This document shows positions 57,365 to 61,488 of a stretch of 64,000 nt of DNA, piece by piece. Each line of letters opens with the position of its first letter. Within the stretch, counting starts at the first letter, position 1. Both the position numbers and the translations under genes were made by a program. Where the stretch lies: contig JAFALY010000030.1 of the NCBI GenBank assembly GCA_019233975.1, forward strand, positions 127,550 to 191,549. Direction: 5' to 3'. The notes beneath the pieces are model-generated. The model saw nothing but the letters and a program-made list of their open reading frames with translations, was not told the origin of the DNA and ran no database searches. The DNA comes from Alphaproteobacteria bacterium (GTDB taxonomy: Bacteria > Pseudomonadota > Alphaproteobacteria > UBA9219).

Positions 57365-58903
57365 CTAAAAGGCAAATTCATATTCCAGCTTCCACCTGAC
57401 CGCATGGTCGGGCGTGGCAGGCGTTGAGCCGTACAGGTAGCCGACTTCGTAGCGGATACCCTGCCCGTCAAAGGTATAAACCTTACCGAATATGGCCGGA
57501 CCGATCGCCAGTTGCTGATCCTGAAAACGCGCCTTGCCGTCCGTATTGCCATACAATTCAAAACCGGGTTCGAACAAGTGGTGATAGCGATAGCGGAACT
57601 GGTTGCTGTAGATAAAGCCGGTTGGCGTATCGCCTGCGCCATAATCTTTGTGCACAAGCAGGTTGGTCACGTTACTAAACTTGCCGATATCTTTGCCACC
57701 CAGAACGCCAAAGATGATGTTGTTCGGTCCTGTACGGGCAAAATCCATTTCATAGAACAATGCGGGATCGATCCAATACTCACCCTGCTGCGCCAGCTGG
57801 AACGTGTTTTCAATGTTGAATGATGAATAGCGCAGCTTGTTATCGCCATCGTCACCACCATTGCCGGCAGGGCGTTCAAACTCAGCTTCGAACTCCGCAC
57901 GGTAATAGTCGGTCGGGCTGTAACCAAACGCCAGCGTGCCGTCCTTATCATTACTATTATCCGGGTTTTTGTCATGCGATAGATAACCCTGATGCTCAAA
58001 TTCCGCTTCGCCCTTTTCCACATAGGGGCTGAGCACTTCAAGCGCTTGGGCCTGATGCGCCGACAACAGCCCCACCGCAGCGATGATAACCGCAACCGGT
58101 GTAATCGCCTGACGCGCCACTAGGCGGGTCAGCAGGATGACCAGCGACAGGGTGCACACATAGAACACCAGTTCAATACCGTTCGGTTGCGCGATATAAC
58201 CCGTGAACGCCGATAGCATTTGACCCAAAAATCCCTGGTCAGAGATGATGCCGCTGCTGTCCCACAAACGATTGCCCAGTTCGGGCAATAATCCGGCCTG
58301 TGCCAGAAAATTACCGGCGCGCGCCGCCATGCCCGCCGCAATCAGCACCAGAACAATGTTGGTGAAGGTAAAAACGCGGTTGATCGGCAGTGATACAAAT
58401 CCCCAATACATCAGGGCGCTGACAGCCAGTCCAGCCGCGAGGCCCATTAAACCGCCACCGATCACATTCGTCACGGCGCCCGAAGCCCAAAGCCCCTGCA
58501 GCATCAAAACAACTTCGGATCCTTCACGCATGACCGCCAGAGCAACGATAACGGCCAGCATGGACATGTGCTTTTCGCCATTGCTGATCCCTGCGCATTT
58601 CTGCTGCATCTCGGCAACCATTTCACGGCCATGCTGGCTCATCCACACAACATGCCAGGCGATCAACGCAACGGCTGTAAACAAAATGGCCGCATTCACA
58701 ACCTCCTGACCCACGCCGTCAAACAGGCCGGAGATAGAAGTCGTCAGCAAACCAACGAGCGTCGCGCCAACAACGCCAGCGCCGACACCGGCCCCGACCC
58801 AGAGGCCACGATGGCGAACACCCTGTGTCGCGGCCAGTATGATGGTCACGATCATCGACGCTTCCAGAATTTCACGAAAAACAACAAGAGCAGCTGCAAA
58901 CAT
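57365..58903 (-). CDS. FTR1-family iron permease fused to an outer-membrane-barrel-like domain
   Basis: Residues 1-260 are an FTR1-type permease for iron uptake: multiple helices with two RExxE motifs (REILE at 10-14 and REGSE at 126-130). Residues 260-287 look like a signal peptide (RLVARQ, hydrophobic core, then AQA at 285-287), and residues 288-512 are beta-rich with alternating aromatic residues, ending EYEFAF, the terminal Phe typical of outer-membrane barrels. No stop or frameshift separates the two. The whole frame is 512 residues, much longer than a bare FTR1 (about 270-280). An in-frame GTG at residue 262 could alternatively start a separate secreted protein. It follows the cupredoxin gene by 22 bases. 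Confidence 0.88.
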   Translation of the reverse strand: MFAAALVVFREILEASMIVTIILAATQGVRHRGLWVGAGVGAGVVGATLVGLLTTSISGLFDGVGQEVVNAAILFTAVALIAWHVVWMSQHGREMVAEMQQKCAGISNGEKHMSMLAVIVALAVMREGSEVVLMLQGLWASGAVTNVIGGGLMGLAAGLAVSALMYWGFVSLPINRVFTFTNIVLVLIAAGMAARAGNFLAQAGLLPELGNRLWDSSGIISDQGFLGQMLSAFTGYIAQPNGIELVFYVCTLSLVILLTRLVARQAITPVAVIIAAVGLLSAHQAQALEVLSPYVEKGEAEFEHQGYLSHDKNPDNSNDKDGTLAFGYSPTDYYRAEFEAEFERPAGNGGDDGDNKLRYSSFNIENTFQLAQQGEYWIDPALFYEMDFARTGPNNIIFGVLGGKDIGKFSNVTNLLVHKDYGAGDTPTGFIYSNQFRYRYHHLFEPGFELYGNTDGKARFQDQQLAIGPAIFGKVYTFDGQGIRYEVGYLYGSTPATPDHAVRWKLEYEFAF

Positions 58904-58925: not shown

Positions 58926-59261
58926 TTACGGTTGCGCGACCAGCTTGCCGGTCGTATCGCGGTGGAAGTCGTCATAGAAGCCATAGGCCCCGGCTGACAG
59001 GGGGCCGATGAAGACTGTGATCTCGCCATGGCCAGCCACGACCTTTTCACGGTTCAGTTCGCTGCTTTCAAATTCGGCGGCGTTGTCGTCATCATTCGTG
59101 ATGACCAGTTTAAATTTTTTGTCGGCGGGTACTTTGACCTCAGCCGGCACAAAAGCGTGGTCTTTGATATGCAATGGTATCTGCTGCATGTCATCGGCCT
59201 GCGCGTGAACAGCCAGCACCGACATCATTCCCACCAAAACGACTGCGAACTTTTTTGACAT
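58926..59261 (-). CDS. Periplasmic cupredoxin-like protein, FTR1 partner
   Basis: A 111-residue exported protein with signal peptide (about 1-22, ending AQA) and a compact cupredoxin_1 fold: PLHIKDHAFVPAEVKVPADK, LVITNDDDNAAEFESSELNRE and GPLSAGAYGFYDDFHRD. As in other FTR1-linked members, the usual copper Cys is replaced in the EFESSELNRE stretch, so classical blue-copper electron transfer is unlikely. It probably helps oxidise or deliver iron to the permease, which is coded directly downstream. Preceded by a Fur box. Confidence 0.87.
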   Translation of the reverse strand: MSKKFAVVLVGMMSVLAVHAQADDMQQIPLHIKDHAFVPAEVKVPADKKFKLVITNDDDNAAEFESSELNREKVVAGHGEITVFIGPLSAGAYGFYDDFHRDTTGKLVAQP

Positions 59262-59355: not shown

Positions 59356-61488
59356 TTATTGGATTGAGGACAAAACCGTGTCGGTGGAAAGCAATTCCGG
59401 CAGCAAAACCCCCTGCGGATGCCGGGGTGAATAAACGATATCGAACGGTATGCCAAAGCGTCCGTATTTTTGCAGATAGGCTGCAATCTTCGGGTTAGGG
59501 TTGGTCCAATCGGCCTGCATCGGAACGACGTCCGCACGACCGAACAGGTGTGCTGCAACTTCCGGACGCGACAAAACAAATTTCTTATTCGCCTTACAGG
59601 TCAGACACCAGCTGGCGGTTACATCCACAAACACTGTGCGACCTTCTGCCACTTCGGATGGTATCTGGCTTTCATCGAAAACCTGCCATTGATGGTCCGC
59701 GAGCACCTGCGGCTTCATACCGTCACCGGCGTGCGCCGCAAAGACCAGACAGAACAACGCGACAATGGCCACGACCCCTGCCCGCTTTGCCGGTTTTACC
59801 TGACCGTAGACAAGACATGCGACAAACAAAGAAACACCAAAAGCGAGAACAGCAACATCCATCAGCCTTATCTGCGCAGCCAGCACCCACAGCAGCCACA
59901 GCGCGGTCAGCGCCAAAGCAACGCCCAGCACGCGACGCAGCGCAACCATCCACACACCGGGGCGCGGCAAGCAGACGGCGATTTTTGGCAGCACCGCGAC
60001 AGCCAGATAAGGCGACGCCATGCCGATGCCCAACGCGGCAAAGATCAGCAAAATCTCCCCAGATCCGGCTGACAAGGCAAAACCAACCGCCGTGCCGAGA
60101 AACGGCGCCGTACACGGCGTGGCCAGCAAGGTCGCGAATGCGCCGGTCAGAAAATCACCCAACAATTTCGGATGATTTTCAGACAGGCCCAGGCGATCAG
60201 CCAGATGATACGGCAGTTGAATCTGCAGCCAGTCCCACATATTGGCGGCGAATAACGACAATACCAAAACAAGCCCGATCAGAAAAACCGGCTGTTGAAA
60301 CTGCACGCCCCAACCGACTGCCTGCCCCGCCTGCTTCACAATCATGGTGGCACAACCCATTGCCAGAAAGGAAAAGATGATACCGGTCGCCGTCACAATA
60401 AAGCTGCGCCTGACATGTGTTTCTTCACCGCCACCATGTTTGATGAGCGACAAAACCTTGATCGACAAAACGGGCAAGACGCACGGCATCAGGTTCAAGA
60501 TGAACCCGCCCAGTAATGCCAGCACCAGTGCATATTGTAGACCGATGGAAGGGGCGGATGTCGACGCGCCCACCCCGTCACCCTGTGTAGCGGATGGGGT
60601 GGGTGGTGTAGCCGCATCCCCGGTTTTTGTTACCAGCGCAGCTGGCCCCGCATGATCATCATGAATTTCCAGCGCCCTGTTGCCATCCACCAACGTCGCA
60701 GTGATCGGCAATCCTGTTAAACTGACGCCATCGGGTAGCTTATCCGTTGGCTTGACGGTTAGCGTTGCCGCGTGATGCCCTTCTTCCCAAGTAATCAGCG
60801 GCGCGGCAAATTCAATGTCCTTGTCGTTTTCAACAAAGATGTCGGGGCTGGCCAAATCATCATCCGATTTAACATGGAAGGACAGGCTGTCCGCCTTACG
60901 CTCCACACGGTCTATCGTCAGACCATCAACCCGGCTTTGCGGAACGGCAGCGCGGGCGGCTTTCAGCACATCAGCCTCTGCCCCCTCATCGCCATCACCG
61001 GATACCAGTGACAAACTCAGATTAAACGTCTTCGGCACGCAGGTTTGATTGCACACCAGAATGTTGACTGTTGCCTGCAGTCGCGCCGCCTGCCCCGGAT
61101 GCGCCAACGTCACATCGACGGGGAACACCACACCTTTGCGATAGCCGATCGTTTCAAGACCAAAGTCCGTATAACGTTTGGGTGCCGGGTATAATAACGT
61201 CGCCGTTTTCACATTGCCGGTATCACTTTGGCTCTGTGTCCAGTCCAACTGCGGTGGCAATCCGGCCATGCCGGGTGTGCGCCAATAGGTATGCCAGCCT
61301 TCACCAAGGCGTATCTGTAGACCGACATCTACCTTGTCGCCATCCCCCACGCCACTACGTGCGGCAATTAATCTGGCCGATGCATCAGCATCCCCCTGCC
61401 ATGCCCCTGCGGCCGCCCAAACCAACTGGGTTGACAACAAAACAGCCGCCACAACTACGGAACTAGCTAATATCCTTATTAACCGCAT
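59356..61488 (-). CDS. Thiol:disulfide interchange protein, DsbD/ScsB-like
   Basis: Membrane protein that moves reducing power from cytoplasmic thioredoxin to the periplasm. Signal peptide at 1-25 (ending VWA); an N-terminal beta domain with a CNQTC motif; an eight-helix transporter with redox cysteines in NLMPCVLPVLSIKVLS and ATPCTAPFLGTAVG; and a C-terminal thioredoxin domain with WCLTCK. 710 residues is nearer the ScsB group than the 565-residue E. coli DsbD. AGGA lies seven bases before the ATG. It may keep cysteines reduced for cytochrome c or metal-handling proteins; the cupredoxin operon downstream is an obvious candidate. Confidence 0.9.
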   Translation of the reverse strand: MRLIRILASSVVVAAVLLSTQLVWAAAGAWQGDADASARLIAARSGVGDGDKVDVGLQIRLGEGWHTYWRTPGMAGLPPQLDWTQSQSDTGNVKTATLLYPAPKRYTDFGLETIGYRKGVVFPVDVTLAHPGQAARLQATVNILVCNQTCVPKTFNLSLSLVSGDGDEGAEADVLKAARAAVPQSRVDGLTIDRVERKADSLSFHVKSDDDLASPDIFVENDKDIEFAAPLITWEEGHHAATLTVKPTDKLPDGVSLTGLPITATLVDGNRALEIHDDHAGPAALVTKTGDAATPPTPSATQGDGVGASTSAPSIGLQYALVLALLGGFILNLMPCVLPVLSIKVLSLIKHGGGEETHVRRSFIVTATGIIFSFLAMGCATMIVKQAGQAVGWGVQFQQPVFLIGLVLVLSLFAANMWDWLQIQLPYHLADRLGLSENHPKLLGDFLTGAFATLLATPCTAPFLGTAVGFALSAGSGEILLIFAALGIGMASPYLAVAVLPKIAVCLPRPGVWMVALRRVLGVALALTALWLLWVLAAQIRLMDVAVLAFGVSLFVACLVYGQVKPAKRAGVVAIVALFCLVFAAHAGDGMKPQVLADHQWQVFDESQIPSEVAEGRTVFVDVTASWCLTCKANKKFVLSRPEVAAHLFGRADVVPMQADWTNPNPKIAAYLQKYGRFGIPFDIVYSPRHPQGVLLPELLSTDTVLSSIQ

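Follow-up and report, generated by a model that had tools for sequence, protein, structure and literature searches.

Outer-membrane passage of free ferrous iron is usually left to general porins in FTR1-type uptake systems. The closest described systems, FtrABCD and EfeUOB (Brucella, Bordetella and Escherichia coli), pair a permease with a periplasmic cupredoxin. In the part of the published account of FtrABCD that was available, the cupredoxin FtrB speeds the oxidation of Fe2+ and has E84, E86, E93, D118, D119 and H121 as metal ligands, and FtrC, a member of the FTR1 family, is the permease (PMC11966278).

The locus presented here has a permease and a cupredoxin of these types, and its permease gene continues in frame into a predicted β-barrel. 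It lies in an alphaproteobacterial stretch of 64,000 nucleotides (the window, meaning the whole stretch that was analysed). A sequence-only reading had described one frame coding a permease, a signal-peptide-like joint and an outer-membrane-barrel-like domain; that observation is confirmed by our computational analysis, and its main interpretation is supported. The frame runs from 58903 to 57365, ATG start to stop, on the minus strand (a point missing from the earlier reading), and encodes a chain of 512 amino acids that ends, as had been stated, in EYEFAF. The features are as follows.

57365 to 58903, minus strand: fused gene of FTR1 permease, signal-peptide-like joint and 12-stranded barrel, a single open frame
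58118 to 58903, minus strand: FTR1 iron-permease domain, residues 1–262, seven transmembrane (TM) helices (Pfam PF03239, AF2 model)
58862 to 58876, minus strand: RExxE motif 1, REILE, residues 10–14, in TM1 (from the sequence)
58514 to 58528, minus strand: RExxE motif 2, REGSE, residues 126–130 (from the sequence)
58043 to 58120, minus strand: joint, residues 262–287, predicted internal Sec signal peptide (n-region, h-region and AQA)
58118 to 58120, minus strand: GTG codon 262, suggested earlier as a possible internal start
57368 to 58042, minus strand: predicted barrel domain, residues 288–512, with an acidic lumen (AF2, Foldseek, VIA-align)
58926 to 59261, minus strand: cupredoxin of FtrB/EfeO type, 22 bp upstream of the fused gene (Pfam Cupredoxin_1)
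59356 to 61488, minus strand: DsbD-like gene, 94 bp upstream of the cupredoxin (Pfam DsbD_TM, DsbD_N and Thioredoxin_7)

The identity of the first half is clear. Residues 1–266 match Pfam FTR1 (PF03239) with an E-value of 6e-31 and 108 bits against a cut-off of 25.3; the best NCBIfam match is EfeU, at 134 bits and below the equivalog cut-off of 255. The AF2 model of residues 1–292 (pLDDT 89.9) contains the permease helices in a seven-helix topology, and no sequence relative was found in the PDB at E 0.01. Both RExxE motifs of the sequence-only reading are present, REILE and REGSE, and E11 and E14 of the first and E127, G128 and E130 of the second are invariant in the permease alignment.

Residues 288–512 on their own match no Pfam or NCBIfam family. 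Their AF2 model, built with 19 aligned sequences, is confident (mean pLDDT 90.8) and places twelve strands in order. The best PDB match found by Foldseek is FapF (E 7.6e-7), and VIA-align gives Z-scores of 21.2 for FapF, 20.7 for the COG4313 channel 4RL8 and 19.2 for KdgM, at 7–10% identity, with the FapF and COG4313 alignments spanning about 215 residues. These comparisons are matches of fold only; the set of barrels as a whole has no Pfam or NCBIfam match of note. A non-barrel prediction for this part would have refuted the earlier proposal; what was obtained is a confident 12-stranded barrel with structural matches to outer-membrane channels.

Of the 12 strands, 11 show a clear difference in hydrophobicity between their two faces. 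The strands hold twelve acidic residues that are invariant or nearly so (domain positions 12, 14, 16, 50, 78, 92, 98, 158, 162, 199, 220 and 222), and all of these are on the less hydrophobic face. Faces were assigned from residue parity and hydrophobicity, without measured coordinates, and the less hydrophobic face was taken as the lumen. On this model the domain is predicted to be a β-barrel with a hydrophobic exterior and a polar interior, and its outer-membrane location is inferred. The predicted lumen is acidic and probably cation-conducting. An acidic lumen fits a cation pore; iron conduction is an inference, and only the neighbouring genes speak for specificity towards iron.

Residues 262–287, VARQAITPVAVIIAAVGLLSAHQAQA, read as a signal peptide, with AQA at 285–287, as the sequence-only reading had recognized. 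A small-x-Ala site of the signal peptidase I type directly precedes the barrel in all 29 fused genes (27 A-x-A, one SYA and one TQA). In the 18 fused genes first found, the stretch before the site carries a net charge of +1 to +4 followed by 16–25 mostly hydrophobic residues, and the site lies 5–6 residues before a conserved proline of the barrel. The site is kept across the fused genes; the sequence of the h-region is not. Positive residues (RLVARQ) lie between TM7 and the joint, in agreement with a turn in the cytoplasm and export of the part beyond it. By its sequence the joint is a signal peptide; cleavage itself is inferred.

If no cleavage occurred, the product would be a two-domain inner-membrane protein with its C-terminal part tethered as a periplasmic beta domain. 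There is no proteomic or biochemical evidence of cleavage, and AF2 draws residues 242–291, TM7 plus the joint, as a single long helix; both points count against a polyprotein and in favour of an uncut chain. However, the AF2 alignment for residues 1–292 had almost no homologous rows across the joint, and the unbroken helix therefore says little. The C-terminal domain has the hydrophobic outer and polar inner faces of membrane barrels and matches outer-membrane channels, its unfused homologues have ordinary signal peptides, and the small-x-Ala site persists despite an h-region that is not conserved. Between the AQA site and the first predicted strand there are about 11 residues. A linker of that length cannot bridge the periplasm, and an uncut chain anchored in the inner membrane would therefore be unable to place its barrel in the outer membrane. 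We consider an uncut chain very improbable.

In two congeners of a fused species (G129 and G237; loci L100 and L072), a homologous joint is followed by a different domain of 78 residues with four cysteines, which has no Pfam match above the cut-off and may represent a second cargo after the same joint. G129 carries a separate barrel gene with its own signal peptide 3.8 kb away.

The sequence-only reading had raised both cleavage and an internal GTG start at codon 262, and had placed that codon correctly at position 58120. Under the second reading, translation would begin a second time near the end of TM7, and the cell would make both the long chain and a shorter pre-protein in which the barrel follows an N-terminal signal peptide. 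Starting at GTG-262 would indeed give a well-formed signal peptide of 26 residues, but there is no Shine–Dalgarno pairing upstream of this codon (+0.7 kcal/mol; the ATG that starts the gene has −5.5). In another fused gene (G348) an ATG near the end of TM7 does have Shine–Dalgarno-like pairing (−5.5 kcal/mol), and internal initiation could therefore contribute in some lineages. Fused genes often have a methionine at the end of TM7 (10 of 18), but so do alphaproteobacterial permeases without the fusion (16 of 42; Fisher p 0.26); since it is common in both groups, it is a feature of TM7. No internal start codon, GTG-262 included, is conserved among the fused genes, and two of them (L092 and L148) have no ATG, GTG or TTG 18–40 codons before the predicted cleavage site, the range in which a signal peptide could start. 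An internal start would not prevent synthesis of the full-length chain, as there is no stop ahead of the barrel. An internal start is thus poorly supported, and we regard it as unlikely; cleavage of a polyprotein is favoured.

The in-frame fusion occurs in 29 distinct genes from seven families, all with intact frames. Three genomes of the window's order carry it, among relatives with separate genes; further fused genes came from searches of the class, one further order and the phylum. Full-length matches to the fused gene have 33–61% identity. Apparent full-length matches from Gammaproteobacteria were rejected as fusions, being two adjacent, often overlapping genes; there, permease and barrel are encoded by such neighbours and the barrel has its own signal peptide. 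The sequence-only reading had named a missed stop or frameshift near codon 260 as a possible refutation of the fusion. Relatives with neighbouring separate genes lend that idea some colour, as does locus L151 (1446–3060), in which permease and barrel share a frame with a single TAA between them. An artefact of sequencing or assembly that joins two neighbouring genes is nevertheless refuted for the family by the recurrence of intact fused frames in many genomes, and the chance that it explains the window is negligible. In L151 the barrel has a separate ATG and signal peptide, and this arrangement is plausibly a step between the separate and fused states.

Unfused barrels carry their own N-terminal signal peptides and often adjoin FTR1 and cupredoxin genes. 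Three unfused gene orders are found in Alphaproteobacteria: cupredoxin–permease–barrel, permease–cupredoxin–barrel and cupredoxin–barrel–permease. The genes are kept together although their order varies, which argues that the products work jointly; the set of permease, barrel and cupredoxin genes recurs, usually unfused. Because the two proteins are encoded by separate genes in relatives, and often by neighbours, the fused chain is most likely cut in two. Barrel and FTR1 are not obligate neighbours, since some barrel genes have no FTR1 alongside: two (L101 and L109) adjoin a cupredoxin only and five (L102, L104, L106, L107 and L108) adjoin neither. At loci without FTR1 nearby, the barrel may also serve other transporters. 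On a Hydrogenophaga plasmid (L141, 4001–5680), an FTR1 gene is followed by two short coding sequences annotated 'hypothetical protein' over the barrel region, and the barrel looks broken.

On a permease tree of 82 rows, the fused label requires eight changes, five of them forced by starred branches; one of the five is L158, a fused gene cut by the end of its contig and counted as separate, which leaves four. On a barrel tree of 56 rows, nine changes are required and five are forced. Both trees were built by a quick method, and the counts do not distinguish gains from losses. On well-supported branches, switches between the fused and the separate form number at least four or five. Such interconversion is expected if both arrangements, with or without an intervening stop, leave the cell with the same two products.

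The gene directly upstream of the fusion encodes a cupredoxin (Pfam Cupredoxin_1, E 1.3e-27) that matches the structure of Brucella FtrB (8VUK, E 3e-14) and in which the equivalents of all six FtrB ligands are conserved. It is probably a periplasmic ferroxidase or iron carrier. An FtrB-like cupredoxin adjoins the permease or the barrel in most related loci. For the DsbD-like gene, no homologue was found beside related loci, and a part in the fused-gene unit is not shown. In the whole genome that holds the window, nothing matches FtrA/P19 (PF10634). A clear FeoB was not seen there either; the FeoB_N matches are in frames sized like other GTPases, and absence is not proven. Two TonB-receptor matches are present. 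FTR1 may be the main ferrous-iron importer of this organism.

At three gammaproteobacterial loci (L038, 498–5655; L024, 1345–5603; L142, 1–3194), cupredoxin, FTR1 and barrel genes follow a response regulator and a histidine kinase. An SDR enzyme is encoded further upstream at all three, a haem-oxygenase-like iron enzyme also at L038 and L024, and an AMP-binding enzyme also at L038. A small-molecule pathway may be tied to the uptake system at these loci.

We propose that the fused gene probably encodes a polyprotein, and that cleavage after AQA-287 yields an FTR1 permease for the inner membrane and a barrel for the outer membrane. The seven-helix permease would insert into the inner membrane with its C terminus in the cytoplasm, and the joint, acting as an internal Sec signal peptide, would send the C-terminal part to the periplasm. 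Signal peptidase I would then cut after AQA-287, and the BAM machinery would insert the released 225 residues into the outer membrane to form a 12-stranded barrel. The acidic-lumen barrel would probably admit ferrous iron or another cation to the periplasm, where the FtrB-like cupredoxin may bind or oxidize iron, and FTR1 would carry iron inward. The proteins for the two membrane steps would in this way come from one chain, in equal amounts. The fusion, its conservation, the fold of the barrel, the signal-peptide features and the gene partnership were established computationally; for the polyprotein products, cleavage, location in the outer membrane, and iron as substrate and its flux are inferred. 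Action of signal peptidase on an internal segment after seven TM helices would also be unusual.

The barrel family is still recorded as 'hypothetical protein' in public records and has no name or description in Pfam, NCBIfam or the literature searched; neither for it nor for the permease–barrel fusion did we find a description in the literature and databases searched. Its recurrence in Alpha- and Gammaproteobacteria, next to FTR1 and a cupredoxin resembling FtrB, makes this barrel family a concrete candidate for a dedicated pore. The fused genes go further than neighbourhood evidence in tying the two membrane steps together, and they offer a clean way to ask whether a polytopic inner-membrane protein and an outer-membrane barrel can be separated by signal peptidase I. 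The fuller reading, in which the polyprotein joins an inner-membrane transporter to a dedicated, TonB-independent outer-membrane pore for ferrous iron and has repeatedly interconverted with a two-gene form, seems to us evenly poised between right and wrong.

Each part of the fused gene can be set beside a described system. Residues 1–262 match the FTR1/EfeU family (PF03239), which includes FtrC of FtrABCD, in both RExxE motifs and in the seven-helix model; no described member of that family with an outer-membrane barrel was found in the literature searched. Residues 288–512 have the same barrel fold as the FapF and COG4313 (4RL8) channels, but sequence identity is very low and no Pfam family was detected in common, and a shared fold is not a shared function. 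For internal cleavage by signal peptidase, no usable published precedent was found in the literature searched. The cytochrome b/c1 precursor of Bradyrhizobium, encoded by fbcH, is one gene product that gives a polytopic inner-membrane protein and an exported protein, split post-translationally at an internal signal sequence. Both fbcH products stay in one inner-membrane complex, whereas the second product of the window's gene would go to the outer membrane. For FtrABCD, the available part of the published account describes no dedicated outer-membrane pore (PMC11966278), whereas in the gene set of the window the barrel is a recurrent partner.
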